Source of the DNA: Methanomassiliicoccales archaeon
GTDB taxonomy: Archaea; Thermoplasmatota; Thermoplasmata; SG8-5
Direction: 5' to 3'
Assembly: GCA_030612505.1 (NCBI GenBank)
Contig: JAUWNU010000006.1
Coordinates: forward strand, 1-41,965
Length of the DNA: 41,965 nucleotides
The notes under the pieces were generated by a model, which was not told the origin of the DNA, searched no databases, and worked only from the letters and a program-made list of their open reading frames with translations. Both the position numbers and the translations under genes were made by a program. Each line of letters starts with the position of its first letter. Position 1 is the first letter of the stretch. This document shows, one piece after another, positions 30,545 to 39,282 of this stretch.

Positions 30545-31930
30545 ATGGCAAAAAGGGGGCATACTGAAGAAGGAAAGGTATTCTGTTCTGAATGCGGTTC
30601 AATCATAGAGAAGGAATCTGCAAAATGTGAGCATTGTACCGAAAGCCTGGATGGTGATTTTCAAGCTGTTATCTGTCCCTATTGCGCCACTGTTTTGGAT
30701 TCTGCTTCAGAGAACTGTACTAATTGCGGCCTTAGATTTAAAAAAGATACAAGCAGTGGAGGCCGCAGTAAGGAAGATGAAGAATTTTTATCCAGACTTC
30801 TGGATTGGGGGCGCAACCTAGAGCAAAAGCGGGCTGCCGAGGACAAGGAAGAGACTGAAAAAGCAACTGAGACTTTCAAGGACATAATGGGAGCTAGCAT
30901 CCCTACTCCATATCAAGAAGAAACTCTGCAGGAGATTAAGAAATCCGCAGAAGAGCGTGCCGAATTCGACAAGCGAGAAGAAAGCATAATTCAGATGGCT
31001 ACACCGCTCCGGAAGGCGCTGGATCTGCGGAAAAAGGCATTGAACAATCTTGAAAGAGACCTCAAGCCACTCCGTGATGAACTAGATCGTATTGATCCAG
31101 ATGATATTGAAGGGGACAAAAAACGCAGTGAGATAGAACGTCAGATGGCCGAAATAATGGTTGAGAGGGGAGCTATCCAGAGCCTTGAGGAAAATATCTC
31201 TAATATGGATTCTGCCTACCGCCAACTTCTGAAAAAGCATTCTGCTGATGTCAAGGAAAAGGAAGAAAACCTCAATACAAGGCTCAACGCATTCAAAAAC
31301 GAGATGGCCAGGCGAGATAAGGAGAAAGATAAGCTCAAACATCGGGAAGGAATATTGGCTGATAGAGAAAAGGAACTTGTTGACAGAATTGAGTCTCTAA
31401 AACATAGGGAAATTAGCCTGGAGAACACTGAAGAAAAGCTCAAGCAGGAGATTGAGTCCCTTAAAGAAGAGAAGGGCAGCGTTGAAGAAATGAAAGCGCC
31501 GGCATCCAAACTCATAGCGGCCAAGGGCAAGTGGCTTGTTGACGAGAATGAAATAAAGGGCATTTTGAAGAAATCCAAGAAAGTCAGAGAGGCCTGGCTG
31601 GAGGAGCAGACCAGTATTCAATATGCAATATCCAGTGGCGAGGGCCAGGAACAGATGACCGAAGAAAGCCAGGAACGTCTGGAAGCAAGGGAAAAAGAGC
31701 TTCAGGACAAAATAGATAGGCTGGAGGAAAGGCTGGCTAGTGTTGAGTCCGAAGAGAAGCTAATTGTGGCCGAAGAAAAGGCACTGGCTGTGGATGGAGA
31801 GAGAATAAAGAAAGTATTAAAGATATTGGATGATTTACTTGAAAACCTGCCAGAAGACATAATCGATAAATTTGCAAAATCTGAGGATTACAAACATTAT
31901 GACAAATTAATGGAGGAACTGGGACTTTAG
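30545..31930 (+). CDS. Double zinc-ribbon coiled-coil protein
   Basis: A 461-residue protein. Two zinc ribbons are at the N-terminus (C14-x2-C17...C28-x2-C31 and C44-x2-C47...C58-x2-C61). From about residue 80 the protein is long alpha-helix rich in Glu, Lys and Leu with heptad spacing, so it is probably a dimeric coiled coil. There is no enzymatic motif. It is followed by the 1500-residue coiled-coil gene after a 10-base gap carrying GGTGA, so the two are likely translated together. The ribbons could bind nucleic acid or partner proteins. Confidence 0.75.
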   Translation: MAKRGHTEEGKVFCSECGSIIEKESAKCEHCTESLDGDFQAVICPYCATVLDSASENCTNCGLRFKKDTSSGGRSKEDEEFLSRLLDWGRNLEQKRAAEDKEETEKATETFKDIMGASIPTPYQEETLQEIKKSAEERAEFDKREESIIQMATPLRKALDLRKKALNNLERDLKPLRDELDRIDPDDIEGDKKRSEIERQMAEIMVERGAIQSLEENISNMDSAYRQLLKKHSADVKEKEENLNTRLNAFKNEMARRDKEKDKLKHREGILADREKELVDRIESLKHREISLENTEEKLKQEIESLKEEKGSVEEMKAPASKLIAAKGKWLVDENEIKGILKKSKKVREAWLEEQTSIQYAISSGEGQEQMTEESQERLEAREKELQDKIDRLEERLASVESEEKLIVAEEKALAVDGERIKKVLKILDDLLENLPEDIIDKFAKSEDYKHYDKLMEELGL

Positions 31931-31940
31931 GTGACTGACC

Positions 31941-34900
31941 ATGGGTTTGCGTGATAAGGCCAAAAAAGCACTCGAAGAAGAAGTGAAGGACGCAATCGTT
32001 GTTGATGAGCCAGAGCAAGCCCCAGAAACTGAAGAGGACATAGAATGCCCCAAGTGTGGCTCTTCCAATAGCAGTGATACGGCAATGTGTTTTTCATGTG
32101 GCCAGAACCTGAAGGAAGACTATGTACCAGAGGCAGAACCGACTCATGAAGCAGAATCCGAAGTTGAGCCTGAGGAGGAAATTCCTGAAGAGCCCGGCAT
32201 TGATATTTCTGCTCAGCTAATTGAGAAGGTTGATGAACAATTTCCTGAGCCTGAGGAAGAACCGGAGCCAGTGATTGAGGCTGGCGATGATACGGTTGAG
32301 AATGCAACCGAGGAAATGCCAGATGAAGAGCCTGAAGTTATTGAAGAGCCTCCTGAAGAAATTGAGACTGGCGATGATACGGTTAATGAAGTAACCGAGG
32401 AAATGGCAGATGAAGAGTCAGCACCCGAACCGGAGCCTGAACCCGAGAAAGAAATTGTTGAAGAACCTCCGATACCAGCAATGCCAGACATGTCTGAAAT
32501 TCAAAAATCTATTGACAAAATGAAGGATTTGGAGAAGTCAGAGAAAGAACTAAAGGGAAAACTGGCAGATACTGAGAAAGAACGTGATTCCAATGCAGAT
32601 AAGGTCAAGGAACTTGAAAAGAACTTAGAAAAACTTGATGCAAAAGAAAAGGAACTTGATTCCAAAGATAAAGAACTCGCAGAGATAACTGGCAAAGTTG
32701 AGAAACTGGAGAAAAAGCTGGCTGACTCGGACAAAGCAGGTGCCGATGCTGGCGACTTGCAGAATAAGATTAGTGAACTCGAGAAAACCATTTCTGTCCA
32801 TGGCGATAAGGAAAGCGAATGGGAAGCCCAGCGCAATACCATGGAAAATGAATATGCTGGCCTTGAAAAAGAGCTCAAAGACCTGAGAAAAGAGCAAAAG
32901 AAAATAGAAAAATCAGGGCAGGATGCCGGAGAACGTGAGAAAGAGCTTGAACAAAAGCTCATTGCAATTGAAGCAGAGAAGGAAGAATTAACTTCCACAT
33001 TTGATGATAATAAGAGAAAATTAGAAGAATCCACTGGAGAACTTGATGGTTTGAAGGGCGAAGTTGAGAGCCTCAAGGATAAGCTTGAGAATCTCAATAA
33101 AAACCTTGAAGATAGCAACAAAGAAGCTGGTAAGGCAAAAGAAACCGAAGATAGATTGAAAGAACTTGAGAGCCAGATTGACATATTCCAGGCAGAAAAA
33201 GAATCTCTTGTGAATGAAAAAGAGGAACTATCAAAGAACCTTGAATTTGAGAAAGGGGAGCTCACTGCCAGCATTGATGAGGAAAAGAAGCGTTCAGAAG
33301 ATTATGGCGTGGAAATTGATGAACTTAAAAAGGAACTGGCCAATACAAAACGGGAAATGACAAAGGCCAAGAAATCCCGTGAGAAAGAGAAGGAAGAGAT
33401 GGGCGAGGAGAAAAAGAGCCTGGCAGATTTACAGGACCAGCTTGCTAGCCAGCAGGCTGAAAGTGAGGGCAAGGACGAAGAGCTCAGGGCCATGTCCGAG
33501 AAATTGGACAATAAGAGTCAGGAGCTGGATGAGACTGCAGAATCCCTGAAAGCCAGCCAGGAAGAGCTTGAGAAAGAAAAGGAGAAACTTTCTCAAGAGC
33601 GTGAGGCAAAGGAGGCAGAACTTAGGGGGCTGGGGGAGAGACTGGATGCCGACCGAGGCCAGTTAGATGAGCGTTCTCAAGATCTAGAAAGACAGGTTGA
33701 AGAAAACCGCAAAGAAATGGACAGCATGCGAGCTGACATCGAGGCTAAAGAAAAGGAATTAGAGAACCTCAAGAAAAATCTGGACGAGGCCAGAGAAGGT
33801 ATTTCAACATCAGAATCAGAGCTCAATAGAGACCGCGAGGAATTTGAGGGCAAGAAAAGCTCACTAACAGCCCAGGAAGAAGAACTTGCATCCCGGATAA
33901 ATGAATTCGAGGAAAAGGAAAATTCAATTGCCCAGATGGAAGCAGATCTCAATGAACGCAATGGCATAATTGACGAAGCCGAGAAAAATCTAACTAAGCA
34001 GGAAAAAGACCTCAAAGCCAGCATGAAGGAATTTGATGAGGAAATGGCTGGCAAGCATGAGGAATTTGATATAAAATTCCAGGAACAGGATGAGAAGCTC
34101 CATGAAATCAAGTCCCAGCAGAAAGAGTTAGAAGACATGCGGGAAGGCATTCGCATGTCCAAGGATGAGGTAGGAGAAAAAGAATCGGAAATCCTGGAAA
34201 AGCGGAATGAGATTTCAGAGCAGCTTAAAGATTTGGATTCCAGGAAAGAAGAAGTTGAGTCCCGAGAGAAAGAGCTCACTAAGCTTGAAAAGAAACTTGA
34301 CAAGAGCCAGGCCAATATCGAGGAAAGGGAAGAATCAATCAATGCCAGCAAGAAAGAAATCAAAGACAGGGAAAAGGCACTGGACGCCTTCAACAAGGAG
34401 CTCGAGGCAGAAAGAAAAACGCTCGATGAGAAAAATACTGGCCTGAATGAGTTGGAAGACAAGCTGGGAAAGAGAAGCAGCCAGATGGAAGAAAGGGAAA
34501 TAACATCTTCAGATTTTGATAAAGAGCTCAAGAGCCTGAAAAAGAGCCTTGAGGAGCAAATTGAAGAGGCCAATGAGCGGGATAAAATTCTCACTGACAT
34601 GGAGAAGGAACTCAAGAAGGAAAATGCTAAACTGACCAATACTCTGGAGAAGCTAGAACAGGATCGCCAGCATTTCAATGAAGATACAGAAGCCCTGGAG
34701 GAACGAACCTCCGCACTTGATGATCATGATAAGGTCTTAACCAAGAAAGAAAAGGAACTGGCCAACTTGGAAACAGACCTTGATACCAGAGAAGAAAAAA
34801 TTGACACAGAGAGCAGTGAAATTGCTGCCCAGCGAGAGAAACTGGCAGGCAGAAAAGCAAGCTTTGAGACCACAATGGAAGAACGCGAGAAGGCTTTGGC

Positions 34901-36443
34901 AGATGAAAAAGATGCAATGCATCGCAGAGAACTGGAAGTCAATGAACGCGAGAGAAAAGTCAATCAGAAACAGGTAGATATTGATGGGAAACTTTCTAAT
35001 TACTCAAAACGCGAAGGCGAATTACTGGCCCATGAAGAAGCACTGAATGAACTGGATGCCGAAGTTCAGCAGCGGCTGGATGATGTTCGAGGAAAAGAAA
35101 CTAGCCTTGAAAATCAACGGGATGAGATTACAGCAAAGGAAGCCGAGGTAAAACGGCTTGAAGATGATATTGTACTAAGGGAAAAGCAGATCATCAAGAC
35201 CAAAGCTGGCTTCGAGAAGCGCGAGGTAAAGCTTCAGGAGATGGAGAAAGAACTTAAAGATCAGAAAACACGTTTAATCAGCCAGAAAGATGATATTGAG
35301 AAAGTCTGGAGGGATATCGGCAAGGAAACAAAATCCATAGAGGCAAAGCAGAAACATCTCCGGAGCCAGGAAACCGATATGGAGGTTAAGAAGGATGAGA
35401 TGGCCAAGAGGTCTGACGAGCTCAAACGTGCAGAAATGGACCTCAATTACAAATCAGATGATCTTGTGGAACGGGATAAAGAACTGGACACGAACATTGA
35501 AAAGATGGCCAAGGAAACTGAAGAACTAAAGGTTCGGGCAGAGATAATAACCCGCCGTGAAGCGGAACTGGCTGCCCATGAGCGGGACCTCAATCAGATG
35601 GAGGCTGACCTTCATGCCAAACTTGAAAATATTAAAACGGAAAGGGTAGAACTAGACAAGATGAAGGGCGACCTGCCCCAGAAGGTGAAAGAGATAGAGG
35701 GGCAGCAGAAGGAACTTCGTGAACGCGAGGCAGACCTCAACCGCATGCGCCGCCTGCTTGAAGAGGAAATGGATAAGCGTCAAGCAGAGATGGATATGCT
35801 GAAAGAAGAGAGAGAAAAGGTCGATGAAATGAAGCAATCTGCCATGGCATTAATGAAATACGGTAAATCTGTGGAGCAGAAGCGCAACCAGGAGATCCTA
35901 AAGAAACTGTCAATCGAGAATGAACGCAATGAGAAGCTCAGGGTCGTAATGGAAGAAGATTTGAAGGGCAAAGAAGAAGATGTTGAAAAGCGAGAGCGCG
36001 ATGCGCTTATGTTGGCCCAACAAAATCACCAGCTGCAGGATGAGCTGGATGTCCGCAGAAGGCAGGTAGATTCAGACATGGAAGCCCTTATGGTGGAGAA
36101 GAAGGAAGCTGCTGAAGTCTGGAAGCAGATTGAGATTGAAAGCCATAAGGCCATTGATGTGGAAGAAATTATTAGTGAGAGAGTCAACAAGCTTGTGGAG
36201 AATGAGAAGGCTAGCATAACCAAGGAAATTAATCGGCTCAAGAAGATGGAGAAGGAGCTATCTACCCGTGAAAAAGAGATTGGAAGCCGGGAGAAAGACC
36301 ACAAAGCTGATAAAGGAAAAATTTCAGCACTGGAAGCTGATATCAAACGGAAGGAAGAAGACCTGGTCAAGAAGGAAAAGATGCTTGAAGAGCGTAAAGA
36401 ATACCTTGATACGCTGAAAGAGAGTTTGACCAAACTTTTGTAA
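31941..36443 (+). CDS. Giant zinc-ribbon coiled-coil protein (1500 residues)
   Basis: A short helical start is followed by one zinc ribbon (C36-x2-C39-x10-C50-x2-C53) and an acidic, Pro/Glu-rich linker (about 60-185, with a repeated GDDTV...EVTEEM unit). About 1300 residues of nearly unbroken coiled coil then run from about 185 to the end. There is no ATPase head, so it is not an SMC or Rad50 protein. A coil of that length would be roughly 190-200 nm if continuous (0.15 nm per residue), which fits a filament, tether or scaffold. The protein is strongly acidic and basic in alternation. Function not recognised. Confidence 0.8.
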   Translation: MGLRDKAKKALEEEVKDAIVVDEPEQAPETEEDIECPKCGSSNSSDTAMCFSCGQNLKEDYVPEAEPTHEAESEVEPEEEIPEEPGIDISAQLIEKVDEQFPEPEEEPEPVIEAGDDTVENATEEMPDEEPEVIEEPPEEIETGDDTVNEVTEEMADEESAPEPEPEPEKEIVEEPPIPAMPDMSEIQKSIDKMKDLEKSEKELKGKLADTEKERDSNADKVKELEKNLEKLDAKEKELDSKDKELAEITGKVEKLEKKLADSDKAGADAGDLQNKISELEKTISVHGDKESEWEAQRNTMENEYAGLEKELKDLRKEQKKIEKSGQDAGEREKELEQKLIAIEAEKEELTSTFDDNKRKLEESTGELDGLKGEVESLKDKLENLNKNLEDSNKEAGKAKETEDRLKELESQIDIFQAEKESLVNEKEELSKNLEFEKGELTASIDEEKKRSEDYGVEIDELKKELANTKREMTKAKKSREKEKEEMGEEKKSLADLQDQLASQQAESEGKDEELRAMSEKLDNKSQELDETAESLKASQEELEKEKEKLSQEREAKEAELRGLGERLDADRGQLDERSQDLERQVEENRKEMDSMRADIEAKEKELENLKKNLDEAREGISTSESELNRDREEFEGKKSSLTAQEEELASRINEFEEKENSIAQMEADLNERNGIIDEAEKNLTKQEKDLKASMKEFDEEMAGKHEEFDIKFQEQDEKLHEIKSQQKELEDMREGIRMSKDEVGEKESEILEKRNEISEQLKDLDSRKEEVESREKELTKLEKKLDKSQANIEEREESINASKKEIKDREKALDAFNKELEAERKTLDEKNTGLNELEDKLGKRSSQMEEREITSSDFDKELKSLKKSLEEQIEEANERDKILTDMEKELKKENAKLTNTLEKLEQDRQHFNEDTEALEERTSALDDHDKVLTKKEKELANLETDLDTREEKIDTESSEIAAQREKLAGRKASFETTMEEREKALADEKDAMHRRELEVNERERKVNQKQVDIDGKLSNYSKREGELLAHEEALNELDAEVQQRLDDVRGKETSLENQRDEITAKEAEVKRLEDDIVLREKQIIKTKAGFEKREVKLQEMEKELKDQKTRLISQKDDIEKVWRDIGKETKSIEAKQKHLRSQETDMEVKKDEMAKRSDELKRAEMDLNYKSDDLVERDKELDTNIEKMAKETEELKVRAEIITRREAELAAHERDLNQMEADLHAKLENIKTERVELDKMKGDLPQKVKEIEGQQKELREREADLNRMRRLLEEEMDKRQAEMDMLKEEREKVDEMKQSAMALMKYGKSVEQKRNQEILKKLSIENERNEKLRVVMEEDLKGKEEDVEKRERDALMLAQQNHQLQDELDVRRRQVDSDMEALMVEKKEAAEVWKQIEIESHKAIDVEEIISERVNKLVENEKASITKEINRLKKMEKELSTREKEIGSREKDHKADKGKISALEADIKRKEEDLVKKEKMLEERKEYLDTLKESLTKLL

Positions 36444-36756: not shown

Positions 36757-37194
36757 TTGGGTGACGAACCTGAAGAGAATGATAGCCTGAAGAAAGCCAG
36801 GGACATGATTGAATATATCGAAGACCAGGTTATCCGAGGCAAGGAGATGGGCATAGAATTTTCTGAAGTTCAAGCCCTAATTCAGGGTGCAAAAATGATG
36901 ATTGAATCAGATGTACTTCTTGATGCCCAGGATCTTATAGACCAGGCCACGGAAATGGCTAGCCTGCGTTTTACAGAGTTCCAGCTCCTTCAGGTTAATA
37001 TCAAAAAATTGGAAATGAAGATTAAGGAGACAACATTGGGCGACGATACAGAAGAAGCCGAGAAAAACCTCAAGATGGCAAAGTATCATCAAAACACTGG
37101 CTACTATCGATTGGGCAATGATTATGCCACAAGAGGGATGAAACTTTTCACCGAGAAGAAGGAGATTGAGTATAAGTGGGGGAGTGGGCTTTAG
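36757..37194 (+). CDS. Small helical protein next to the coiled-coil genes
   Basis: A 145-residue, almost entirely helical protein. It starts with TTG, chosen because GGAGTGAT precedes it directly. The sequence has helices of TPR- or four-helix-bundle type (ALIQGAKMMIESDVLLDAQDLIDQA, EKNLKMAKYHQNTGYYRLGNDY). It lies on the same strand downstream of the two coiled-coil genes, though 313 bases away, so operon membership is uncertain. No known function. Confidence 0.55.
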   Translation: MGDEPEENDSLKKARDMIEYIEDQVIRGKEMGIEFSEVQALIQGAKMMIESDVLLDAQDLIDQATEMASLRFTEFQLLQVNIKKLEMKIKETTLGDDTEEAEKNLKMAKYHQNTGYYRLGNDYATRGMKLFTEKKEIEYKWGSGL

Positions 37195-37251
37195 GAATGT
37201 TCAAACCCCCCAGGCATGTTCTTACCAATCCCTAGTCAAAGCGGTTGTTGT

Positions 37252-38202
37252 TTATTCGTCAATAATTTGAATATTAAACGATATTCTTCGATTGTATCCA
37301 GCCGGGAAATTATCGCCATCTGGATTAATTATAACTGGCCACCCACAAAGAGCATCTATTTCAAATTGAACTTTAATATAATCACCCTGGTATTCCTCAG
37401 GAATAATATTGTGGATGTAAAATGAATAATTGAAATAATTACTTCCCTTTGTTATATTGACTTTTTCAGATTTTGGAGATAGATACTCGAATGGCGAAGA
37501 AGATATCCAGACATCAAATTCTGCATCACAATTGGGAATATCTAAAAAGGAGTCAACAGTAACATTCAAACAACATAAATCACCATCATTGAATGAATAC
37601 AACGGATATAATGACTCGTCAGAGATATAATTAAAATTTCTAGAAACAGTATAAGTCGTATTTACCACATTATTGGGTGTCAATATTTGGCCAGTGTTTT
37701 CTCCAACATCTAGACAGAGAACATAGAGCGAATAATATTTACCATGTCCTAGCCCTACTTCATTATAATTTAGCGATTCATTTTGAATCAAGGATTCATT
37801 TGCGTAATAGCAACATCCGAATTTAACATAATATGTGCCAGTTTCTATCGGTTTTATTGTCCATGAATAAAAAAGTTCTTCGCCTGGGCTTCTAAGATTC
37901 CTAACACTTCCATTTGTTAGTATTATTGATTCTGGCAAAATTAATTGTTTAAAAATAGACTCATTTGCTCTACTTGTGATGCCAGTAACCTTGTGATAAG
38001 TTCTCCAAGTAATTGTTGTTTCTTTATTCAAGACCGGAGGCTCTGAAATAATGAAATCTGATGTGTAGTTGCTTTCTGTTGAACCCATACAACAGAGGGC
38101 ATAATAGTCATCATCGCTAGGTGAGTTCATAACAATTAAACCAGCAAGGATTGATACAATAATTATCATACTGGCAATTATTATTACTATTCCCTTTCTC
38201 AT
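37252..38202 (-). CDS. Exported cysteine-containing protein, unknown function
   Basis: A 316-residue protein with an N-terminal hydrophobic segment (about 4-26) and a short basic start, so it is probably anchored outside the cell. Cysteine pairs recur (CC near 37, CCYY, DLCC) and there are many N-x-S/T sites. Two beta-rich regions are visible. No domain recognised. It precedes the tRNA gene on the same strand with about 80 bases between. Confidence 0.55.
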   Translation of the reverse strand: MRKGIVIIIASMIIIVSILAGLIVMNSPSDDDYYALCCMGSTESNYTSDFIISEPPVLNKETTITWRTYHKVTGITSRANESIFKQLILPESIILTNGSVRNLRSPGEELFYSWTIKPIETGTYYVKFGCCYYANESLIQNESLNYNEVGLGHGKYYSLYVLCLDVGENTGQILTPNNVVNTTYTVSRNFNYISDESLYPLYSFNDGDLCCLNVTVDSFLDIPNCDAEFDVWISSSPFEYLSPKSEKVNITKGSNYFNYSFYIHNIIPEEYQGDYIKVQFEIDALCGWPVIINPDGDNFPAGYNRRISFNIQIIDE

Positions 38203-38281
38203 TTCTCATCAACCCATTTAATCTATGTATGTTAATTATTTAAGGATATTGGTACACCTTTTGTAAGCATAAAGAAAAAAG

Positions 38282-38382
38282 CGGACTCAGGGGGATTTTC
38301 GACGAATTTAATTATAACTCGATTCGAACCCCCGTCAAAGGCTCCGAAGGCCCTCAGGATATCCTGGCTACCCTATGAGTCC
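38282..38382 (-). tRNA. tRNA-Arg(UCG) with a 27-base T-loop intron
   Basis: After removing 27 bases the minus strand gives a full 74-base tRNA. The acceptor stem is GGACTCA with TGAGTCC. The D-loop is AGCCAGGATA. The anticodon stem is AGGGC/GCCTT with loop CTTCGGA, anticodon UCG at 38345-38347. The T-stem is GGGGG/CCCCC with loop TTCGAAT and the discriminator is G; no CCA is encoded. A T6 run follows directly. It decodes CGA (and by wobble other CGN) arginine codons. A promoter-like GATAAAAAG lies about 30-40 bases upstream. If the insert is not spliced, the gene would be a pseudogene. Confidence 0.85.
38296..38322 (-). other. Predicted bulge-helix-bulge intron in the tRNA T-loop
   Basis: The insert sits between tRNA positions 59 and 60. 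On the tRNA strand, T-stem GGGGG/CCCCC leads into a central helix TTCGA/TCGAA (or TTCG/CGAA), with small bulges AT and AAT (AAT and AAT in the shorter version). An intron stem CGAGTT/AATTCG with a 7-base loop follows. Cutting after AA in both bulges gives the normal loop TTCGAAT. Confidence 0.75.
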
Positions 38383-38430
38383 ACAAGCATTGCATTATCA
38401 AGGTCTTTTTATCATTTGTGGTTGGAAATC

Positions 38431-38646
38431 GTTGAATGCAAATCCAATTATTGATGAAACATAGCATTCGACAATGATGTGGAAACTATATCTGGCTTAA
38501 TTGAACATCATACTGCTCACAGCAATAAATGAGCAATGGTTGTATGCGGAAATTGATGAAAGAAGAAGGAGCATACGACAGATGTGGCAGCAATAATAAT
38601 TTTAATTAAACATCAAAAATGACCGTAATCAGAAATTGTCAATCAA
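38431..38646. repeat. Two tandem ~108-base units with covarying hairpins
   Basis: Units begin at 38431 and 38539. Each has GTTG(A/T)ATGC, then ATTGATGAAA, then GCAT(T/A)CGAC, then GATGTGG and TAATT(G/A)AACATCA. The stem base pair A-T in unit 1 is T-A in unit 2. The second unit merges into an 8-bp inverted repeat CCGTAATC/GATTACGG (38623-38657). Confidence 0.6.
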
Positions 38647-38661
38647 GAGGATTACGGCTAC

Positions 38662-38724
38662 GCTACCCTATGAGTCCACAAGTGTCAGAATGCCAAGGGG
38701 TTTTTATCGTTTTTGGTTGGAATT
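38662..38724 (-). pseudogene. Partial copy of the tRNA-Arg 5' end and its promoter
   Basis: Bases 38662-38682 are identical to 38367-38387 (21 nt: the tRNA acceptor 5' strand, the start of the D-arm and the base run before it). The next 42 bases also resemble the tRNA's upstream region, including (G/C)ATAAAAA and a CCAACCA block. The tRNA body is not continued after GTAGC. The GATAAAAA overlaps the stop codon of the DUF998 gene. Confidence 0.6.
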
Positions 38725-39282
38725 ATAGTACCACCACCCCAGCATCCCGAACCAAATACTCCCAGGCACAAAGGTCAGAACCTCAGGGATGGCTATGCCA
38801 GGGCCCCAGTTGATGCTCCAGCCGATTATTCCGATAATTGCAACGGCAAAGGCTGCGATTCCCAGGTATTTTGGCTTCTTGAACAGGAAATAAGTGCCCA
38901 TAACAAGGCATGCCAGCAATAACAAAACAAAAAATGCCACAGAGAAGTAAAAATGATGTGGTGAATAGTCTTCTGTAAAAACTCCAATGCCTACAAGGGC
39001 GATTGAAGCCAGAAACATCATTAACATTCCGATTTTTCCCAGCCAGTGCTTGAGAGCCATGATAACTCCCAGGGCAAAAACCATACACATAATTCCGCAT
39101 ACTATAAGCGAAATATTAAAAATCGGCGCAACATCACTTACCCCTAAATCGCTGATCGCATTGTTCCTCCAGCTGAACCAGGGCGACAGCATAATGGCCA
39201 CTGCAATTGAGCCCAGTGCATAGGCCGGGCCAATGATTGCCAGCAACCCTATCTTTCTATTTTTCAGAATCTCAAAATTCAT
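38704..39282 (-). CDS. DUF998 family membrane protein
   Basis: A 192-residue integral membrane protein with about six hydrophobic segments. The WRNNAISDLGVSDVAPIFN motif after the first helix is the mark of DUF998 proteins. A conserved FTEDYSPHHF lies in the middle. Function of the family is not known. It is the last gene of the minus-strand run that begins with the hydrogenase; its start codon is 2 bases after the flavin reductase stop. Confidence 0.8.
   Translation of the reverse strand: MNFEILKNRKIGLLAIIGPAYALGSIAVAIMLSPWFSWRNNAISDLGVSDVAPIFNISLIVCGIMCMVFALGVIMALKHWLGKIGMLMMFLASIALVGIGVFTEDYSPHHFYFSVAFFVLLLLACLVMGTYFLFKKPKYLGIAAFAVAIIGIIGWSINWGPGIAIPEVLTFVPGSIWFGMLGWWYYNSNQKR

Follow-up and report, generated by a model that had tools for sequence, protein, structure and literature searches.

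Euryarchaeota with alpha-4 or alpha-2 splicing endonucleases have few tRNA introns, one per gene and at the canonical place (review PMC4090602), and the diversity of introns has been tied to two loops of the endonuclease EndA, the Crenarchaea-specific loop (CSL) and the ARMAN-specific loop (ASL) (PMC6379350, PMC12397907). Bulge-helix-bulge (BHB) tRNA introns at non-canonical positions are described for Thermoproteales, where they are thought to have been transposed (Sugahara 2008; Fujishima 2010, in PMC4033280, PMC4090602). Thermofilum pendens has permuted tRNAs that are joined at position 59/60 (PMC3218864), ARMAN-2 has an epsilon-2 EndA and non-canonical tRNA introns (PMC12397907, PMC6379350), and intron-rich tRNAs are reported for the Asgard groups Atabeyarchaeia and Freyarchaeia (PMC11291895).

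The locus described here, together with its relatives, resembles each of these systems in part. As in Thermoproteales, there are BHB introns, several per tRNA gene, which are similar across different tRNAs; unlike there, the lineage belongs to Thermoplasmata, its EndA is of the two-repeat, homodimer type, and the intron family has one preferred site, 59/60. Many of the introns are 100-177 nt long with a three-hairpin structure, compared to a range of 11-129 nt in a 2014 review. The junction lies in the T-loop at 59/60 as in the permuted tRNAs of T. pendens, but there the 3′ part is upstream of the 5′ part, whereas the exon order here is normal. As in ARMAN-2, introns occur at unusual tRNA positions outside Crenarchaeota; the ARMAN-2 EndA, however, has three units and the ASL, while the EndA here has two repeats and no such insertion. 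Atabeyarchaeia and Freyarchaeia likewise have many non-canonical introns outside Thermoproteales, but they belong to another phylum, and their description, in the part available, mentions neither T-loop introns nor intron families (PMC11291895). The novelty lies in where these introns occur and how widespread they are: T-loop introns interrupt nineteen isoacceptors, many of the introns having conserved internal structure, in a lineage whose EndA is of the homodimer type. No earlier account of these introns was found in the open-access literature, most subscription journals being beyond the search.

The window, a stretch of 41,965 nt, carries on its minus strand a tRNA-Arg(UCG) gene whose T-loop is interrupted (Table 1). 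A sequence-only reading had proposed this gene with a 27-nt T-loop intron, and its coordinates, strand, anticodon and junction proved exact on direct reading. On the minus strand the gene reads GGACTCA TA GGGT AGCCAGGAT ATCC TG AGGGC CTTCGGA GCCTT TGACG GGGGG TTCGAA (27 nt) T CCCCC TGAGTCC G, so that the spliced tRNA has the T-loop TTCGAA/T (the stroke marking the junction), a T-stem with 5/5 pairs and an acceptor stem with 7/7. Because AAT stands on both sides of the intron, sequence alone leaves the junction anywhere from 57/58 to 60/61. The BHB fixes it at 59/60, the position that had been claimed, and the same junction follows from orthologues of other tRNAs that have or lack the intron. 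Neither ARAGORN nor Rfam called the unspliced tRNA in the window, as is expected with a T-loop insertion, and ARAGORN reported tRNA-Arg(tcg) once the intron was taken out. The near-canonical BHB claimed for the flanks was borne out by a fold of the pre-tRNA, the check suggested at the time: the T-stem is extended by TTCG(A)/(T)CGAA and CGAGTT/AATTCG, the folding energy is -42.8 kcal/mol (z = -4.4), and 0/200 shuffles were as stable. In our view this is very probably a functional tRNA-Arg(UCG) gene whose BHB intron, at 59/60 in the T-loop, would be excised by EndA and the exons sealed by RtcB. The intron is one of the short representatives of an intron family that occurs in at least 19 isoacceptors of this group of Thermoplasmata.

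Table 1. Features at the tRNA-Arg(UCG) locus, in positions of the window
Feature	Position	Strand	Basis or remark
tRNA-Arg(UCG) gene, positions 1-73, T-loop interrupted	38282..38382	minus	direct reading, fold, ARAGORN after splicing
Anticodon TCG	38347-38345	minus	
5′ exon, tRNA positions 1-59, ending ...GGGGGTTCGAA	38323..38382	minus	
T-loop intron, 27 nt, TCGAGTTATAATTAAATTCGTCGAAAA	38296..38322	minus	reading, fold, model R1 match
3′ exon: T60, 3′ strands of T-stem and acceptor stem, G73	38282..38295	minus	
Central BHB helix, 5′ strand, T54 T55 C56 G57 of the T-loop itself	38325..38328	minus	
Central BHB helix, 3′ strand, CGAA, intron 3′ end	38298..38301	minus	
AA/T bulge with 3′ splice site			directly after the CGAA strand of the central BHB helix
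T opposite the 5′ bulge of the BHB	38302		
Intron stem CGAGTT/AATTCG, loop 7 nt	38303..38321	minus	
Exact copy of GT + tRNA positions 1-16 (GTGGACTCATAGGGTAGC), then hairpin	38662..38679 (region 38679-38620)	minus	upstream of tRNA-Arg(UCG)

The window's genome (G000) belongs to a family of nine genomes in three genera, of a Thermoplasmata/Methanomassiliicoccales-like lineage. In four relatives (G002, G003, G005 and G006) the orthologous tRNA-Arg(UCG) gene carries an intron at this very base, 30, 137, 59 and 34 nt long respectively, and these introns have little in common beyond the splice helices. Further T-loop introns were searched for with a covariance model, R1, which comprises the T-arm and the intron ends and was built from ten T-loop introns; the window intron, itself one of the ten training sequences, scores 50.8 bits. 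(Searching for the T-loop motif with a gapped DNA pattern gave mostly chance matches, and the covariance model was used instead.) R1 had 40 matches in the family, spread over 9/9 genomes. All matches whose context was read lay in tRNA genes with matching acceptor and anticodon arms, and the acceptor stem was paired 7/7 in 26/26 and in 8/9 of the matches read, the ninth case being a tRNA-Lys(UUU) of G004 (L137) whose gene start is lost at a contig end. Two introns found by eye (L048, L064) and two added later, in tRNA-Lys(UUU) of G003 (L155) and tRNA-Arg(UCU) (L112, 1949-2096), bring the family total to 44, and one each from G071 and G113 makes up the 46 used for counting base pairs. The 46 introns fall in nineteen isoacceptors: Arg (UCG, GCG, CCG, UCU), Ala (GGC), Gly (GCC, UCC), Leu (UAG, CAG, CAA), Lys (UUU, CUU), elongator-type and initiator Met, Pro (UGG), Ser (GGA, UGA, GCU) and Val (GAC). 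Insertions at this position in 45 other tRNA genes, almost all from close relatives, exclude chance as the source of the window's intron. A survey of the class (300 genomes, stricter filters) gave R1 matches in 9/9 family members compared to 2/291 others, and a survey of the order gave a match in 1/4 genomes outside the family, figures to be read with the training of R1 on this family in mind, since more distant T-loop introns may be missed.

Other introns were seen beside those of the T-loop. Within the window's genome, tRNA-Val(UAC) and tRNA-Leu(UAG) have D-loop introns; a tRNA-Ser(UGA) has two introns, and tRNA-Lys(UUU) of relatives has three, in the D-loop, the anticodon loop and the T-loop. 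The loci concerned are L041, L042 and L039 (G000:C50, C31 and C116) and L066, L083, L080, L115 and L125.

Excision of the insertion restored a 5-bp T-stem and the loop TTCRAAT in all 44 of the tabulated introns. ARAGORN recognised 1/43 precursors unspliced and 41/43 after T-loop splicing, with a wrong anticodon in several of the 41 because further introns were still present. Both ARAGORN and the Rfam tRNA model miss genes with T-loop introns, and thus such genomes can look short of tRNAs. Comparison with intronless genes of G000 gave spliced sequences that were identical for tRNA-Gly(GCC) of G003 (73/73), tRNA-Leu(CAG) of G001 (84/84) and initiator tRNA-Met of G003 (75/75); spliced tRNA-Arg(CCG) of G002 matched in 72/74 positions, differing in one compensated base pair. 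Such closely related genes, one having the intron and the other lacking it, with exons up to 100% identical, are material for a study of intron gain and loss.

The T-loop bases TTCR are universally conserved in tRNAs. YGAA at the intron end pairs with them, so that the T-loop itself provides half of the splice motif; the 3′ splice site follows in an AAT bulge, and the 5′ bulge consists of A58, A59 and the first intron base. Across the 46 introns, in an alignment fitted to the covariance model, 98.6% of cells in the BHB helices are standard pairs and 98.4% are paired in the central helix. Cells changed on both sides number 118, compared to 30 in shuffles, and sliding the partner by one column abolished the signal; a gap-free alignment of ten sequences (A2), trimmed by hand, gave the same picture. 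Covariation is also seen at position 57, where A57 stands with T in 16/18 cases, and G57 with C in 17/26 and with T in 8/26 (Fisher p = 9e-6, a rough figure because the sequences are related). Position, pairing, the wider intron family and the presence/absence pairs are all evident from sequence.

These results bear on whether the gene is alive. The sequence-only reading had held that either the EndA of this organism has broad specificity or the gene is dead. A dead gene would mean that the 27 nt came in at random and that another tRNA reads CGA, and we regard this as very improbable: the exons fold perfectly, the flanks retain BHB pairing with covariation, and the four orthologues have introns of different sequence at exactly this site. 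Nor was a second intact tRNA-Arg(UCG), which would have spoken for a dead copy, found among the 37 tRNA genes above the cut-off in an Rfam tRNA model search of G000, with anticodons read by eye. This assembly, with 168 contigs and a completeness of 85%, may lack a second copy, and that is the point in favour of a dead gene. CGA accounts for 43/9,651 codons of the window genes; since this is the only UCG gene found and CGA codons are in use, the tRNA-Arg(UCG) gene is probably needed by the cell. The insertion in the window is most likely a working T-loop intron, in a lineage outside what the published rules would predict.

The other half of the earlier claim concerned EndA. Its relatives carry the names of Methanomassiliicoccales, Thermoplasmata or Euryarchaeota archaea. 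The protein has about 350 aa and contains two PF01974 repeats; one gene per genome encodes it in 8/9 family genomes, and no extra PF01974 match was found in the family genomes. The catalytic residues Y290, H298 and K328-329 are kept and invariant in the C-terminal repeat, and the best PDB matches by sequence and fold are the M. kandleri fusion EndA (5x89) and the A. fulgidus alpha-prime-2 enzyme (2gjw/1r0v). No insertion corresponding to the CSL or ASL was found by alignment; against Aeropyrum EndA the CSL stretch is missing in the G000 protein and short in both repeats. An AlphaFold model was of moderate confidence (pLDDT 69), and its loops are not settled. By sequence the enzyme is one fused two-repeat protein with no other subunit gene, which points to a homodimeric, alpha-prime-2-like type, and the marks of broad specificity (a loop insertion with a lysine, in an enzyme of two different subunits or of three units) were not found. 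The EndA type that the earlier reading had left to be identified could hence be named as a single two-repeat, alpha-prime-2-like enzyme, and no loop linked with broad specificity was found in it; with such an enzyme lacking CSL and ASL, the choice between a broad-specificity EndA and a dead gene is not needed. This family of genomes fits neither the statement on Euryarchaeota (PMC4090602) nor those on CSL and ASL, as it combines one two-repeat EndA without such a loop with T-loop introns in nineteen isoacceptors, D-loop introns and three-intron genes.

The 4-bp helix and the 3-nt 3′ bulge are present in the window intron, and the 5′ bulge faces one extra T, a feature of most relatives as well; an exact 3-4-3 motif is seen in at least six relatives. 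The motif with the extra T can be read as a 5-bp helix with a 2-nt bulge or as a 3x1 loop. Alpha-prime-2 enzymes are classed as narrow in a review (PMC6379350), and with most motifs not strictly 3-4-3 this counts against a working intron. The motif is near canonical, however, so that a strict enzyme may suffice, in which case the position within the tRNA need not matter. It has also to be considered that EndA has an unrecognised broad specificity, through a new loop or a second subunit, which allowed the introns to spread. Most motifs are one base off strict 3-4-3 and G000 has D-loop introns too, as this would lead one to expect, but the single EndA gene per genome with no extra PF01974 match, and the short CSL stretch in both repeats, make it rather unlikely. 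Under the reading that we favour, a near-canonical motif cut by a homodimer-type enzyme, YGAA at the intron 3′ end would pair with TTCR of the T-loop to form the splice motif, the two-repeat EndA would cleave both bulges, RtcB would ligate the exons, and the T-loop would fold and meet the D-loop only after ligation. RtcB is found in 7/9 family genomes, G000 included. We infer that the pre-tRNA is spliced in the cell and that the two enzymes have these roles.

The window's 27-nt intron has its ends in common with the long introns of relatives, but not its interior. More than twenty-five introns of 93-177 nt have a common three-hairpin architecture: a closing stem CGAAG/CTTCG, a first hairpin with constant pairing and variable sequence, a second with a stem around GGC...GTCC, and a short third. 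RNAalifold, run on 14 long introns, predicted 38 pairs, 26 of them with compensated double changes. Rfam has no family for the interior, and no convincing box C/D or H/ACA RNA was found in the long introns by eye or with Rfam; the tRNA-Trp intron is a precedent for such an RNA inside an intron. The possibility that the interior is a general genomic repeat was ruled out, as all matches (16/16) of a BLAST search of the family with one long intron were tRNA T-loops, the intron of L155 being the only one among them that had not been listed before.

The long introns of relatives thus occur in similar form in unrelated tRNA genes, and the shared structure suggests spreading rather than inheritance alone, as Fujishima et al. 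proposed for Thermoproteales; we infer that transposition was the route. Mean identity is 0.72 between different tRNAs in one genome and 0.68 for the same tRNA between genomes, differences that are modest since shuffled pairs reach 0.62. Another explanation would be that T-loop introns are ancestral in the family and were repeatedly lost, the likeness between tRNAs being due to gene conversion. Some T-loop introns are present in all nine genomes, presence and absence alternate even inside a genus, and precise loss would be easy via a copy of the spliced tRNA. We nevertheless consider this account improbable: within one genome, introns resemble each other across tRNAs no less than introns of a given tRNA do across genomes, a converted stretch could not reach beyond the T-loop because the T-stems are specific to each tRNA, and within the class the introns are nearly restricted to this family. 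As to how spreading could work, a speculative and on balance doubtful idea is that the long introns are a mobile RNA element with one target, the excised (probably circular) intron reverse-splicing into the TTCRAA loop and then being copied back into the gene, so that the window intron would be a worn-down copy retaining the splice helices only. If this were true, the element would consist of the conserved three-hairpin domain and the YGAA end, and its target, the TTCRAA loop, is common to nearly all tRNAs.

Several minor observations were made around the tRNA genes. The GTGGACTCATAGGGTAGC copy upstream of the window's gene is kept upstream of the G005 orthologue, where the hairpin has a compensatory change. 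Copies of tRNA ends are found more widely: of 71 tRNA genes examined, 14 are accompanied by an exact duplicate of their own 5′ end (10-18 nt, at most 400 nt upstream) and/or of their 3′ end downstream (11-16 nt), against 0.2-0.3% in the control. The 3′-end copies start at position 60 in the cases read. Further copies, some with conserved hairpins, are at L062 (1293-1352), L016, L111, L124, L110 and L134. We dropped a reading of the upstream and downstream fragments as halves of split tRNAs, since the intron end YGAAAA is missing from the 3′ copies. At L070 (G007:C7, about 1260-1430), just downstream of a tRNA-Arg(UCU) gene, are two tandem units of about 95 bases with a hairpin ending in the 3′ end of tRNA-Arg(UCU). 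The 3′ part of tRNA-Gln(UUG) is present a second time, in truncated form (L040, G000:C57:1120-1185), about 3.5 kb from the intact gene (L013, C57:4619-4690), as would remain after integration of an element at the tRNA. The orientation of tRNA-Arg(UCG) relative to two conserved neighbours is apparently opposite in G002 (L048, C121) and the window (36757-39282). Finally, the window contains at 30545-36443 two adjoining ORFs of 461 and 1500 aa, long and coiled-coil-like with N-terminal zinc-ribbon-like cysteines.
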